In this document: piece after piece, positions 53,890-59,514 of the stretch
How the letters are laid out: every line of letters starts with the position of its first letter
Numbering within the stretch: the stretch's first letter is position 1
Assembly (NCBI RefSeq): GCF_019972295.1
Contig: NZ_BLJA01000001.1
Location: forward strand, 3,007,574-3,071,573
From: Geobacter sp. AOG2
GTDB lineage: Bacteria; Desulfobacterota; Desulfuromonadia; Geobacterales; Pseudopelobacteraceae
DNA: 64,000 bases
Direction: 5' to 3'
The notes under the pieces: generated by a model
What the model was told of the DNA's origin: nothing
What the model saw: only the letters and a program-made list of their open reading frames with translations
Database searches by the model: none
Translations under genes and position numbers: made by a program

Positions 53890-54394
53890 GACGGGAACAG
53901 TTCTCACCCTTGTGCTGTCCGGAGGTAAAGCGGCGCCAATCTGAGCGGGTAGGGAGTGCGGCAGGCTGATGGATACTCGTCTTGGCTGACTCGGCGCTTT
54001 TTTCCATAATTCGATTTTATAACATTTATTGATTTAAATAGCAATCAAGGTTGTCAGCAGGGTAAGAGTTCCCGATTTGCCTCGAATGCCTGTCAAAATC
54101 CCCAATTGTATTGACGGCAGATCATTCCAAGTGATATTTTTCACCTGCTTGCCCGTAATGCAAGGCACCGCTCCCCATGTCATTTTGATAACGTTATTAC
54201 TGAGGCCATCTCTGTCGGAATAATGCCGAGGTGACGTGGCATGCTCGGATAGAATTGGCTGACACTGAATGCAAATAATGATAAAATATGGTAATTAGAA
54301 AATAATCTTCAGATGTTTTTGTAAAGGATGTGAAGGTATGTGCATCCGATTTATATAAAGGTGTCATTAATTCTGATGTGCCCAGGGAGAATAT
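53890..54394. other. intergenic region between divergent units
   Basis: About 500 bp, A+T-rich in its middle. It holds a candidate minus-strand promoter (54016-54044). TATATAAA near 54352-54359 is -10-like for the plus-strand BchE-like gene but has no convincing -35. No gene was recognised. Confidence 0.35.
54016..54044 (-). promoter_or_regulatory. candidate sigma-70 promoter for the 35-54 kb operon
   Basis: On the minus strand TTGCTA (54039-54044) and TATAAA (54016-54021) are separated by 17 bp, with the start site about 120 bp before ATG 53889. It is the only reasonable promoter seen upstream of fourteen closely spaced genes. Confidence 0.4.
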
Positions 54395-55870
54395 ATTAAG
54401 CCTGTAGCAAGCCCCAATAAAATCCTCTTTGTTACCCCGCCGTATCACTGCGGCGTGGCGGAGGTCATCGGTCGCTGGATACCGCTCAACTTCGTCTATC
54501 TGGCTGGCGTTGCCCGCCAGGCCGGGCTGGTTGCCGAAATCTACGATGCTGCCGCCAAGGAACACGGCTATCCCGAGATGGGGGCTTACCTGCGGGAGAA
54601 TGGAGCGGAGTATGTCGCCACCACCGCCATTACCGCCACCATCAACGACGCCATCAAAACCCTCGAGCTGGTTAAAGACATCGATCCCAACTCCGTCACC
54701 ATCCTTGGCGGGGTTCATCCCACCTTCATGTACGATGAGGTCTTCGCCGCCTCCCCTGCCGTCGACTATATCGTCATCGGCGAGGGTGAGGCCACGTTGC
54801 GGCATCTGCTTTCGGTTTTGGAGGAGGGCGGCAACCCGGCAACGGTCCCCGGAATCGCCTTTCGGCAGAATGGTGCGGTGATCAGGACCGCCACGCGTGC
54901 CTTCATCGATGACCTGGACGATCTGCCGGTAGCATGGGATCTGCTGGAATGGAAAGAGTATACCTATTTTGTCATTCCCAACTCACGGCTGGGGGCGATC
55001 AGCACCTCGCGCGGCTGCGACCAGGACAATGGCTTTGGCTCTCAGCAGCGGTTCTGGGAAAAGTCGTGGCGGGCCCGCGATCCCCGCAGCGTCGTGGCAG
55101 AGATGGAGTATCTGTACAAAACCTATCAGGTCAACGTCCTCCTGATTACCGACGAGCATCCCACCAGGGATCGGGAACGATGGGAAACCCTTCTCGACCT
55201 GCTCATCGCACGTGAGCTACCGCTTCACCTTTTACTGGAGACCAGGGCTTCCGACATCATCCGTGACCGGGAAATCATCTGGAAATACCGGAAAGCCGGC
55301 ATCATACACATCTTCGTGGGTTTCGAGGCTGCCAGCCAAAGCCCTCTGGATGCGGTCGGAAGGGAGACAGGCATTGCCGTGGTCAAACAAGCCCTGGCAC
55401 TGATTCACGAACAGGGGATCGTGTCTGATGTGTCATTCGTGCTCGGTTTTCCCGAGGAGACCCCCGACAGCATAAAAAAAACCATGCAACTGGTCCAGCA
55501 GTGCAATCCGGATAACGCCAACTTCCTGGCCCTGACCCCCTGGCCGTATGCAGACAGGTACGAAGAGGTCAAGCCGTATATCCGCCAATGGGACTATTCC
55601 AAATACAACCTGGTGGATCCGGTCGTCGAGCCGCGGAACATGAACCTCTTGCAGGTCGATGTGGCACTGGCGGACTGTTACCGCAGATTCTACATGGGTA
55701 AGATACTGGACGTCATGACCATGAAGGACGACTTCAAACGGGGATACCTGCTGCGGGCGACAAAACTGTTCATGAGCAGTGCGTTTGTTATCAGAAAACT
55801 GGGCGTTGGAATTTTGGGTAAGATCCCGGCAAAAATGGCGGAACTCAGAGCAAAACGTAAAGAAGGGTGA
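54395..55870 (+). CDS. BchE-like B12-binding radical SAM paralogue with degenerate cluster motif
   Basis: About 491 residues if counted from ATT 54395. It resembles BchE (anaerobic Mg-protoporphyrin ester cyclase): ILFVTPPYHCGVAEVIGRW, VTILGGVHPTFMYDE, IGEGEATLRHLL, then the radical SAM part with WKEYTYFVIPNS, RDPRSVVAEMEYL and VSFVLGFPEETPDS. Where the paralogue at 58048 has CDMGCAFC, this protein reads CDQDNGFG, so two of three cluster cysteines (expected near 212 and 215) are Asn and Gly. A standard start is missing: homology begins before the first GTG (54455), and the only start-like codon with a ribosome site (GGAG 54386-54389) is ATT 54395. It is either a decaying gene or a protein reused without its cluster chemistry. 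Confidence 0.7.
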   Translation: MKPVASPNKILFVTPPYHCGVAEVIGRWIPLNFVYLAGVARQAGLVAEIYDAAAKEHGYPEMGAYLRENGAEYVATTAITATINDAIKTLELVKDIDPNSVTILGGVHPTFMYDEVFAASPAVDYIVIGEGEATLRHLLSVLEEGGNPATVPGIAFRQNGAVIRTATRAFIDDLDDLPVAWDLLEWKEYTYFVIPNSRLGAISTSRGCDQDNGFGSQQRFWEKSWRARDPRSVVAEMEYLYKTYQVNVLLITDEHPTRDRERWETLLDLLIARELPLHLLLETRASDIIRDREIIWKYRKAGIIHIFVGFEAASQSPLDAVGRETGIAVVKQALALIHEQGIVSDVSFVLGFPEETPDSIKKTMQLVQQCNPDNANFLALTPWPYADRYEEVKPYIRQWDYSKYNLVDPVVEPRNMNLLQVDVALADCYRRFYMGKILDVMTMKDDFKRGYLLRATKLFMSSAFVIRKLGVGILGKIPAKMAELRAKRKEG

Positions 55871-55937: not shown

Positions 55938-56651
55938 ATGTCCCAATCCATCAGTAGTCAAGGCACGGTACTGATCGTTGAAGACGACCGCAACACTGCC
56001 GCGCTGGTGGCAGCCTATCTCGAGCGTGAGGGGTTCGCGACGGTGGTCGTCCATGACGGCGGGCAGGCCATTCAGGCGGCTGGTTCCTGCAGCCCCGTGT
56101 TCGTGATCCTGGACGTCATGCTGCCGGGCATGGACGGCTGGGAAATCTGCCGAACGCTTCGCAAGACGTCCGATGTCCCGGTGCTGATGCTTACGGCTCG
56201 GGAAGAGGAACTCGACCGGGTTGCGGGATTGGCAATGGGGGCCGACGATTATGTGGTCAAGCCTTTCAGCCCGCGTGAATTGGTGGAGCGGGTCAGGGCG
56301 ATCCTGCGTCGTAGCAGGCCGGTATCCCCCCAGCCTGTTATGGTCCTCTCTTTTGCCGGTCTCGAACTGGATATAGAGAAGCATAGGGTAGCCCGTGACG
56401 GGCGGCCCATTGAGCTGACTTCGTCGGAATACAAGATCCTGCAAGCGCTGATGAGTTCCCCTGGTAAGGCATTTTCCCGTGAAGAGCTTCTGAGTCAGTG
56501 CTACCCCCAGGGCGAGGTGGTCATCGACCGGGTCATCGATGTCCACATCGGCAAGCTGCGGCAAAAGATCGAGGATGACCCCTCCCGTCCCCGGTACATT
56601 CAGACGGTGCGGGGGCACGGCTATCGTTTCAGCGACGAGAGTGGCGATTAG
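55938..56651 (+). CDS. OmpR/PhoB-family response regulator
   Basis: About 237 residues: receiver (TVLIVEDDRNT, phosphorylated Asp59 in VILDVMLPG, Lys108 in DDYVVKPF) and a C-terminal winged helix (HIGKLRQKIEDDPSRP and YIQTVRGHGYRF). Closest in style to BaeR-type regulators. A kinase gene follows by 9 bp. It probably binds 11-bp direct repeats; four such repeats lie at 57892-57935 ahead of the BchE-like gene at 58048. Its gene is 67 bp after the degenerate BchE-like gene, possibly in one transcript. Confidence 0.9.
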   Translation: MSQSISSQGTVLIVEDDRNTAALVAAYLEREGFATVVVHDGGQAIQAAGSCSPVFVILDVMLPGMDGWEICRTLRKTSDVPVLMLTAREEELDRVAGLAMGADDYVVKPFSPRELVERVRAILRRSRPVSPQPVMVLSFAGLELDIEKHRVARDGRPIELTSSEYKILQALMSSPGKAFSREELLSQCYPQGEVVIDRVIDVHIGKLRQKIEDDPSRPRYIQTVRGHGYRFSDESGD

Positions 56652-56660
56652 GAGGGACGG

Positions 56661-57728
56661 ATGAGGCAGCGCCTGCTCTGGAAGTTGCTGATAGGTCATA
56701 TTGTTCCTGTTTTTGCTATTATAGCTCTGTTGGTCTGGCGTGCCATTGACCGGCGAGCGGCTGACTATTATTCGGTACTTGTCGAGCGTTACCGCGTCAT
56801 GCCGGCCGAATCACACCACCTGTTCCTCAGCGCAGTCCATCGTGATCTGCTTTGGGGGGCCCTCACGGCCTTGGCGCTGACCCTGCTTCTGACCTATATG
56901 CTGACCCACTGGGTATTGCGCCCCCTCTCCCGCATAACCGCCATTACCAGAAAAGTTGCCGACGGCAATTATTCCGAGCGCGTGAAGGTTGTGTCCCGCT
57001 ACGAGGTTGGGCAACTGGCCGACGCCTTTAATCACATGGCCGATAACCTGGAGAAGATCGAACATCTGCGGAAAAACATGGTGGCCGACATCTCCCATGA
57101 ATTGCGCACACCATTGACCAACCTGCGTGGTTATCTGGAGGGGCTGAGCGACTCCGTCATACCTCCCTCTCCGGAGACCTTCCGGATGCTTGAGCAAGAG
57201 GTTTTGCGCCTGGTAAATCTGGTCGAGGACCTCCAGCAATTGGCGCGGGCCGATGCGGCCAAGGCCTTTCTCGATCGCCAGGAACTCTCCCTCCATGAAC
57301 TGCTCGAACAGATCATGAACCTGTACCGGCCCAATTTTCAGGAGAAAGAGATTGACGTGCAGTGGTGCCTGGAGCCGGGCACGGATAGGGTTGTGGGTGA
57401 CAGTGACAAACTGTTGCAGGCGATCCGAAATCTGGCCGATAATGCTTGGAAATACACACCGCGCGGGGGAAATGTTACGATCTCGACCCTGCGAATTGCG
57501 GACGAGATCAAGACCGTGTTCGCCAACAGTGGTGCGGTGATTGCCGAGCAGGATATCCACTATCTCTTCGAGCGGTTCTTCCGGGCGGATCGCTCCCGTT
57601 CCCGCGACGCGGGCGGTGCAGGCATCGGTTTGGCAATCGTTAAGGAGTTGATCGAGGCGCACGGCGGTACGGTCGGTGCTGAAAGCGACGCGAGCGGCAC
57701 GCGGGTATGGTTCACCCTTCCGGTTTAG
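56661..57728 (+). CDS. sensor histidine kinase (BaeS-like)
   Basis: About 355 residues. TM1 is about residues 9-27; the periplasmic loop is very short (about 35 residues) to TM2 (about 63-84); then HAMP, HisKA with His146 in DISHELRTPLTNL, and HATPase with NLADNAWKYTPRGG and GGAGIGLAIVKELIEAHGG. The small sensor loop suggests it senses membrane state or a partner rather than a soluble ligand. Its stop codon TAG is formed of the TA target site plus the first base of a MITE-like insert (57728-57881), so its last residues may have been altered by the insertion. Confidence 0.9.
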   Translation: MRQRLLWKLLIGHIVPVFAIIALLVWRAIDRRAADYYSVLVERYRVMPAESHHLFLSAVHRDLLWGALTALALTLLLTYMLTHWVLRPLSRITAITRKVADGNYSERVKVVSRYEVGQLADAFNHMADNLEKIEHLRKNMVADISHELRTPLTNLRGYLEGLSDSVIPPSPETFRMLEQEVLRLVNLVEDLQQLARADAAKAFLDRQELSLHELLEQIMNLYRPNFQEKEIDVQWCLEPGTDRVVGDSDKLLQAIRNLADNAWKYTPRGGNVTISTLRIADEIKTVFANSGAVIAEQDIHYLFERFFRADRSRSRDAGGAGIGLAIVKELIEAHGGTVGAESDASGTRVWFTLPV

Positions 57729-57881
57729 TGTCCCGTGCGGTTAGTCCGTACTCGTGACGCCGGCTCTTTTAGCCGCCGCCTTCGTTGCAGTTCCTTGATG
57801 TAGGCCATGCTACACCTGTGTCGCCGCACCTCGGCACCAGCCAAACACCCTGTACTTCCCACGATTAGCCGCACGGGACAC
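57728..57881. mobile_element. MITE-like 154-bp element with terminal inverted repeats and TA flanks
   Basis: The ends are inverted: GTGTCCCGTGCGG at the left (57728-57740) and CCGCACGGGACAC at the right (57869-57881), with pairing continuing inward. TA lies just outside on both sides (57726-57727 and 57882-57883), like a TA target duplication. The inside has no coding frame. It looks like a non-autonomous element, possibly mobilised by an IS630/Tc1-type transposase (inference). Confidence 0.6.
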
Positions 57882-57891
57882 TAGCCGCCAT

Positions 57892-58047: not shown

Positions 58048-59514
58048 ATGAGCAAGATACTTTTTGTAACGGCACCATATTTCTGTTGGGGGGTACAGGT
58101 CGTCGGCACCTGGCCGCCGCTTCATCTGGCCTATCTCGCCGGCGCCGCACTCGATGCCGGGGACGAGGCCAGAATCTATGATGCCATGAACAAGAAGCAT
58201 TCGTTCGAGGATATCCGGGCGGAGATACAGCGTTACCAGCCCGATTACGTCATGACCCTGGACTACCTTCCGGTCACCGGGGCCATCAGTACCGCAACGG
58301 TGCCCGCCGCGCTCAAAATTCTCAATATTGCCAAGGAGGTGAACCCGAACATCGTCACTCTCCTGGGTGGCCCGCATCCGAGCTTTATGTACGAGGAGAT
58401 CTACGAAGATCAGGAAAATCTGGTTGACTATATCCTTTGTGGCGAGCCGGAGCAAACCCTGAAGGATCTGGTCGCCGCAATTCCAAAGGGCGAAGCCAAG
58501 AATGTCGCCGGCATCGCGTTTCGCGACGGCGATAAGATCGTGGCTAACAAGCGGCACCACCACATCGCCAAGCTCGATGACCTCAAGCCAGCCTGGCACC
58601 TTCTCGACTGGGACGACTACCAGTACAAGGTCGAACCCGGCGGCAGGATGGCCTCCATCCTGACTTCTCGGGGCTGCGATATGGGGTGCGCCTTCTGTAG
58701 CCAACGGATGTTCTGGCGCGAGGACTGGCGCTGCCGTACCCCGGAGAACGTAATTGATGAGATCGAACTCCTGGTTACCACCTACGACATCAAATTCATC
58801 ACCTTGATCGACCCGTACCCCACCAAGCACCGTGACCGGTGGGAATTACTGCTCGACAGGCTGATCGAACGCAATTTCGGAGTGTACTTCCTGATCGAGA
58901 CCCGCGTAGAGGATATCATTCGCGACGCGGACATCCTGCACAAGTACCGCGATGCCGGTATCATCCATGTCTATCTGGGAGCGGAAAGCGCCGACAAGGA
59001 TACCTTGAACAGTCTGAATAAGGGGACCAGCTTCGAGCAGAACAAGCAGGCCCTTGATCTGCTGCGTGAGGCAGAAATCATTACGGAAGCATCGTTCATG
59101 GTCGGTTTCCCGAACGAAACCTGGGAAACCATAGAAAACACCATCGAATCCGCCAAATATCTCAATCCTGACATTGCCGTGTTCCCCGTGGTCACCCCAA
59201 TGCCGTTCACGCCGTTACACAAGGAGATGAAGGACCGCATCAGGGTATGGGATTATTCCAAATACAACCTGGTAACGCCAATTGTCGAGCCGTACGAAAT
59301 GACCATGGAAGAGATAACCCAGGCGCTCGGAACCTGCTACATGAAGTTCTACGGCAATAAGGTGCAGGAAATTGTGGAACTGGAAGATGGCTTCAAGAGG
59401 AAGTACATGCTTAGCGCTTTTCGTGAAATGATGAAAGACCACGGCGAGCATTTCGATTTTGCCGGCTCCGACATGCCGATGCATTTTAACACGGGCGGTA
59501 TGCCCGCGCTGTAG
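58048..59514 (+). CDS. BchE-like B12-binding radical SAM protein (intact cluster motif)
   Basis: About 488 residues. The N-terminal B12-type Rossmann domain (MSKILFVTAPYFCWGV, LLGGPHPSFMYEEIYE, CGEPEQTLKDL) is followed by a radical SAM barrel with Cys210-x3-Cys214-x2-Cys217 (RGCDMGCAFC), SQRMFWREDWR, and EASFMVGFPNETWET. Overall order and spacing resemble BchE, which forms ring E of bacteriochlorophyll anaerobically. No photosynthesis genes lie in the window, so another substrate is likely. The start at 58048 has GGGAGA upstream at 6-7 nt. A terminator hairpin lies at 59593. The four direct repeats upstream imply control by the neighbouring OmpR-type regulator. Confidence 0.85.
   Translation: MSKILFVTAPYFCWGVQVVGTWPPLHLAYLAGAALDAGDEARIYDAMNKKHSFEDIRAEIQRYQPDYVMTLDYLPVTGAISTATVPAALKILNIAKEVNPNIVTLLGGPHPSFMYEEIYEDQENLVDYILCGEPEQTLKDLVAAIPKGEAKNVAGIAFRDGDKIVANKRHHHIAKLDDLKPAWHLLDWDDYQYKVEPGGRMASILTSRGCDMGCAFCSQRMFWREDWRCRTPENVIDEIELLVTTYDIKFITLIDPYPTKHRDRWELLLDRLIERNFGVYFLIETRVEDIIRDADILHKYRDAGIIHVYLGAESADKDTLNSLNKGTSFEQNKQALDLLREAEIITEASFMVGFPNETWETIENTIESAKYLNPDIAVFPVVTPMPFTPLHKEMKDRIRVWDYSKYNLVTPIVEPYEMTMEEITQALGTCYMKFYGNKVQEIVELEDGFKRKYMLSAFREMMKDHGEHFDFAGSDMPMHFNTGGMPAL

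Follow-up and report, generated by a model that had tools for sequence, protein, structure and literature searches.

The analysis of a 64,000-nucleotide stretch of DNA from Geobacter sp. AOG2 (the window) indicates that one of its genes, here called gene A, is a real gene which would start at AUU and respond to IF3, and that its product, a BchE-like protein lacking two cysteines of the radical SAM cluster motif, is most likely a pseudoenzyme retained in this lineage. We assign to this reading a probability of about 0.55; within it, the near-cognate AUH start (H being A, C or U) is most likely an old trait of the lineage kept by selection. The features of the window on which the protein part of this reading is based are the following:

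54395–55870, forward strand: gene A, BchE-like B12-binding/radical-SAM protein of 491 residues with two cluster cysteines missing (translation, Pfam, NCBIfam)
55016–55018, forward strand: TGC, the sole cluster cysteine kept, C208 (codon read directly)
55028–55030, forward strand: AAT, Asn212 replacing the second cluster cysteine (codon read directly; orthologue columns)
55037–55039, forward strand: GGC, Gly215 replacing the third cluster cysteine (codon read directly; orthologue columns)
58048–59514, forward strand: gene B, a paralogue with an intact CDMGCAFC motif and an ATG start (translation, Pfam, orthologous loci)

Radical SAM enzymes require three cysteines to hold their cluster. A first-pass annotation of this DNA had noted that the motif CDMGCAFC of the paralogue at 58048 is replaced in gene A by CDQDNGFG, with the first cysteine alone left, and direct reading of the codons at 55016, 55028 and 55037 bears this out. 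With the ATT at 54395 taken as residue 1, the motif reads C208-D-Q-D-N212-G-F-G215, so that two of the three cluster cysteines are gone and the CxxxCxxC signature of catalytic members is absent; the protein has four cysteines in all, and C208 is the only one within the motif. The remainder of the domain architecture is in place. The B12-binding domain (PF02310) spans residues 18–138 (E 7.4e-22), which puts the protein in the B12-binding radical SAM class by its domains, and Radical_SAM (PF04055) spans residues 213–367 (E 1.4e-12, 48.5 bits vs a cut-off of 29.5), the match beginning at profile position 12 and thus missing the start of the cysteine motif. This Pfam match, together with structural matches obtained with Foldseek, identifies a homologous radical SAM fold. 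In NCBIfam, A and B each match best to the profile of BchE (TIGR02026), which covers them nearly at full length and shares their B12-binding plus radical SAM layout; however, both proteins score below its curated equivalog cut-off of 481.35 bits (372.5 bits for A and 409 for B), and A of the window differs further from BchE in the lack of two cluster cysteines.

The AlphaFold model of gene A was of good confidence (mean pLDDT 83.7, pTM 0.85, 13 sequences), the motif-bearing block of residues 211–220 averaging a pLDDT of 66. The nearest solved folds were those of TsrM (6wte, E 2.1e-21), AprD4 (6fd2, TM 0.71/0.76), MgmA, CysS, TokK and OxsB, and AprD4, TokK and OxsB also match gene A by sequence. 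The resemblance to AprD4, TsrM, TokK and OxsB is nonetheless distant, with just 16–18% identity in the 17 best Foldseek matches, and these four are active, cluster-bearing enzymes, unlike gene A of the window. Literature searches on BchE together with Geobacter and radical SAM found nothing, those on radical SAM homologues that are inactive or have missing cysteines returned no paper on topic by title, and a full-text search for radical SAM and pseudoenzyme gave no paper whose title or abstract uses either term.

The distribution of the altered motif was determined among orthologues, defined as protein matches at E 1e-150 or better and found in 46 of 141 genomes of the order, the window included. 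CxxxCxxC is intact in 44 of the 45 other orthologues. The exception, in genome G121 (locus L113), has the motif CSHQGDFCC, in which the middle cluster cysteine was lost independently, and carries an intact B directly downstream. A wider sample of 395 genomes from the phylum added three new sequences among six matches, at 50–52% identity; two of them were read and keep the motif intact, their nearest canonical starts being GTG and ATG, and the third (L147) was left unparsed. A cysteine loss like that of the window is thus confined to its own lineage of gene A, and a family-wide non-catalytic role for the protein is ruled out. The annotation had left a choice between an early pseudogene and a non-catalytic partner; of the latter, the version conserved across the family falls with this orthologue count, and a pseudoenzyme specific to the lineage is the version favoured. 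The nearest relative carrying gene A, G053, has an intact motif and a protein 72% identical to that of the window, and because no closer relative was found the loss cannot be dated. As a separate observation, the orthologue in G129 (L091) contains one in-frame TAA and has no ATH start, and it is perhaps a real pseudogene.

To the extent that motifs predict function, gene A would encode a complete BchE-like, B12-dependent radical SAM enzyme in most lineages, and in that of the window the 4Fe-4S site, and presumably the cluster with it, would have been lost through the changes Cys212→Asn and Cys215→Gly. The fate of the rest of the protein was assessed with a branch model implemented in our own codon script (F3x4, 7 taxa, 480 codons), which is unchecked against a standard program. 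The annotation had proposed dN/dS as a measure of decay, and on this measure the idea of general decay failed: omega was 0.1125 on the window branch vs 0.1167 in the background, the damage being mainly at the cluster site. The likelihood falls by 1.9 lnL units at an omega of 0.18 and by 19.7 at 1.0, a value that is rejected. As a branch average, therefore, gene A shows no relaxed selection in the window lineage. In addition, the frame is open through to the TGA at 55868, as read directly in the sequence, so that neither a broken frame nor relaxed constraint marks the gene as a pseudogene; loss of catalytic residues with the rest under purifying selection, as averaged over the branch, is instead the pattern of a pseudoenzyme. 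The annotated statement that the frame is otherwise conserved also holds, since the window departs at only four of the 108 columns in which the other orthologues agree to at least 97%: one A→V, the two cluster cysteines and one E→D. That two of the four fall on the three cysteine columns is unexpected by chance (hypergeometric P 0.003), also when the doubtful or truncated sequences of G121, G129, G038 and G030 are left out (departures at 6 of 113 columns, P 0.007). With fully invariant columns only, the clustering is not significant over all sequences (P 0.11) and has a P of 0.005 without those four.

A faster rate was looked for in the window copy, both in branch length and in omega, and was not seen: its branch in the protein tree measures 0.228 vs 0.230 for the intact sister G053. 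When the two genomes are compared, identity is 93% for B and just 72% for A; gene A has a much higher rate than B in both lineages, and the loss of the cysteines goes with no further increase. In G121, omega was 0.112 vs 0.077 (the two differing by 1.2 lnL units), and its gene A protein branch, 0.242, is longer than those of its sisters (0.08–0.11).

These values bear on the strongest competing explanation, which we consider possible but clearly less probable than the preferred one, namely that gene A is a recent pseudogene whose cluster site was lately destroyed by a single complex local mutation, the AUU being simply the inherited start of the lineage. It would account for the retention of the motif in all orthologues but that of G121 and for the packing of the changes into a few codons (TGC ATT TTC TGC in G053 vs AAT GGC TTT GGC in the window), as neighbouring altered codons could stem from one complex mutation. 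A brief neutral period would, moreover, barely alter the branch omega, and by a rough estimate the branch average tolerates such a recent period up to about 8% of the branch. Against this, omega is not raised, the branch shows no excess length relative to the intact G053 and the frame is fully open. If the changes arose point by point, about six substitutions would be needed in the two cysteine codons and the codon behind the first cysteine, a number which, by our own rough estimate, is unlikely for three codons in so brief a neutral time. On balance, a retained pseudoenzyme is favoured over a fresh pseudogene by about two to one, not proven. The remainder of the protein would then be kept under normal purifying selection, with its fold retained as the model suggests, and gene A may persist as a non-catalytic cobalamin- or substrate-binding helper, possibly of the intact B in the same cluster.

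It is improbable, on the other hand, that the protein is still an enzyme, with C208 and non-cysteine ligands (Asn212 or others) holding a cluster or another metal, or with SAM chemistry proceeding without the usual cluster. In favour of such an activity, almost every near-invariant residue outside the motif is retained, and G121 likewise has an altered motif together with a branch omega of 0.11; however, the general need for all three cluster cysteines, and the presence in the motif of just one of the four cysteines of the protein, argue against it.

The second part of the main reading concerns the initiation of translation, for which two features of the window are relevant:

54385–54389, forward strand: Shine-Dalgarno-like GGGAG, 5 nt before the ATT (sequence; GGAG in orthologues)
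54395–54397, forward strand: ATT, the inferred start codon of gene A (ATH at the same place in orthologues)

As annotated, homology begins before the first GTG, at 54455: the conserved ILFVTPP strand lies ahead of it, and a start there would cut 20 residues, among them the strand that opens the B12 domain (modelled as E9-14). From the upstream TGA at 54374 to this strand, the window contains no ATG, GTG, TTG or CTG in frame, and the ATT with its GGGAG is indeed the sole start-like codon with a ribosome site. The same position is occupied by ATH in 27 of the 46 orthologues, the window included (ATA in 21, ATC in 4 and ATT in 2, the window being one of the two). In all 27 the A of the ATH lies 27 nt from the ILFVTPP strand, and in 26 of them a GGAG occurs within 16 nt before the codon, GGGAAA taking its place in the remaining one (G001). 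These orthologues thus have a conserved AUH start with a Shine-Dalgarno site, as in infC. The third base is A, C or T and never G, with at least five changes on the tree by parsimony and none to G. Mean entropy at the three codon positions was 1.69/1.73/1.65 in the region 36–19 nt upstream, 0.83/0.88/1.27 over codons 2–9 and 0.23/0.09/1.05 over codons 10–29; codon-like constraint begins at the ATH codon.

The other 19 orthologues have a nearby ATG (14), GTG (1, G116) or TTG (1, G053), a doubtful start (1, G129) or a contig edge (2, G014 and G042), so that non-ATH forms make up 17 of the 44 uncut by a contig edge, the sister G053 among them. In the protein tree, which is unrooted and displayed with an arbitrary root on G117, one split (bootstrap 80) separates all ATH forms, together with G053, G129 and the two edge cases, from the ATG/GTG forms. 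The ATH genomes are drawn from four families (f1, f2, f3 and f4). Gene B, used as a control, starts with ATG in 32 of 33 cases and with GTG in one. The annotation had treated the missing orthodox start as a defect; being an old trait common to intact orthologues, it is no evidence of decay.

A canonical start elsewhere, either at an in-frame ATG further upstream, which several relatives have, or at the internal GTG 54455, is very unlikely. An in-frame ATG does lie 33 nt before the ATH in G045, G046, G040, G038, G099 and G120, and 14 of the 27 ATH genomes have some in-frame ATG, GTG, TTG or CTG between the upstream stop and the strand. Nevertheless, the other 13, the window included, have none, stops in G007, G041 and G030 block a start 33 nt upstream, codon periodicity is absent in the region 36–19 nt before the ATH, and the GTG would lose the strongly conserved first strand. 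In G007 and others an out-of-frame ATG follows the Shine-Dalgarno site, but programmed frameshifting from it was discarded because, by eye, this ATG is missing in the window, G034, G078 and others. No Rfam match was found in 53900–54600 up to E 1, and two stretches of the window examined for a leader hairpin showed no advantage in folding over shuffled sequences (z +1.11 and +0.44). By eye and by a 70% consensus, a block resembling a promoter (about GAAATGGCTGGATTTTAACGC ... CATGCTA) recurs ahead of the leader in many ATH orthologues; in the corresponding region of the window, 54226–54394, the copy is diverged. A sequencing or assembly error in the cysteine codons, to which the confinement of this altered motif to one genome might point, can be practically dismissed, multi-base in-frame substitutions in a single-contig genome of 3.92 Mb rated 100% complete being in our judgement an unusual type of error.

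The order itself provides a precedent for such starts. The infC gene was found in 128 of 138 genomes, and of 31 loci tried (30 supplied, L116–L145, plus that of the window genome, L115) 28 were readable; in each of the 28, a GGAGGT site precedes an ATA start of infC. From this uniformity it follows that the order very probably initiates at AUA when a strong Shine-Dalgarno site is present. In infC of the window genome, two in-frame TTG occur further upstream and one GTG downstream. No literature on Geobacter with a noncanonical AUA start codon was found. In two sources (PMC5472188, PMC13009471), infC and pcnB are reported as precedents of unusual starts, sigR of Streptomyces has a GTC start and ccpN/cvfC1 of Staphylococcus aureus an AUA/AUU start, the conserved non-canonical codon reducing expression of sigR and ccpN/cvfC1. 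Gene A shares with infC (AUU/AUA) and pcnB (AUU) a Shine-Dalgarno site and a conserved AUH start, but it is an enzyme-type gene adjoining a two-component system, infC has the longer site (AGGAGGT), and the IF3 effect is here a prediction. Like sigR and ccpN/cvfC1, it is a gene other than infC with a conserved non-canonical start; those are other genes in other phyla, where the effect on expression was measured, whereas for gene A it is deduced. Judged from these parallels, the start of gene A is probably IF3-sensitive, which would place the gene alongside infC, pcnB, sigR and ccpN. Gene A would be translated at low efficiency from its AUU, and weak, IF3-sensitive AUH initiation may keep its level low, as for infC.

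Between genes A and B, the window contains a two-component system:

55938–56651, forward strand: response regulator (Response_reg + Trans_reg_C), in a place common to many orthologous loci (domains)
56661–57728, forward strand: sensor histidine kinase (HAMP, HisKA, HATPase_c), in a place common to many orthologous loci (domains)

Gene B is 45% identical to gene A and is its next match in the genome, which contains no second, intact copy of gene A and no other match above 30% identity. In the loci retrieved, B was present in 33 genomes, with its motif intact in all 33. Among ATH genomes it lies 3.4–6.0 kb downstream of the start of gene A in 21 of 27; in G043, G038, G030 and G091 the contig ends just behind or within gene A, and no local B was found in G007 (74% complete) and G034. 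Wherever a response regulator and a kinase were called, they lie between A and B; the ORF calls came from a simple procedure that occasionally chose the opposite strand. B directly follows A in six genomes whose gene A has a canonical start (G104, G105, G113, G114, G116 and G121). Elsewhere, as in G013, gene A begins with ATG downstream of MacB/FtsX-type permeases, an ABC ATPase and an FtrD-like protein; in this genome (99% complete) the one match at E ≤ 1e-80 is gene A itself, so that A occurs without B. The two genes are together often, not always. Between the kinase gene and gene B, a 159-nt element (57727–57885) whose ends look by eye like inverted repeats has 15 matches in the genome including itself, the others at 67–93% identity, and looks like a MITE- or REP-type repeat.

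A partnership of A and B is suggested by this gene neighbourhood, in which A also stands without a local B in some genomes. On a broader and more tentative view, which we hold to be somewhat less likely than its opposite, gene A would lead a gene cluster in this order, and in four of its families the AUH start would act as a selected, IF3-dependent throttle. In the window lineage the product, and perhaps independently that of G121, would have become a cluster-less pseudoenzyme that assists the chemistry carried out by the intact B.

Apart from infC and pcnB, the bacterial genes known to have retained a start codon outside AUG, GUG and UUG are few, and a gene finder limited to these three codons would start gene A at GTG 54455 and lose 20 residues. 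A comparative case drawn from many genomes offers a direct route to testing IF3 control of an enzyme gene. If the preferred reading is true, gene A of the window would give this superfamily a naturally occurring pseudoenzyme of an uncommon kind, a B12/radical-SAM homologue without a cluster that is maintained by purifying selection.
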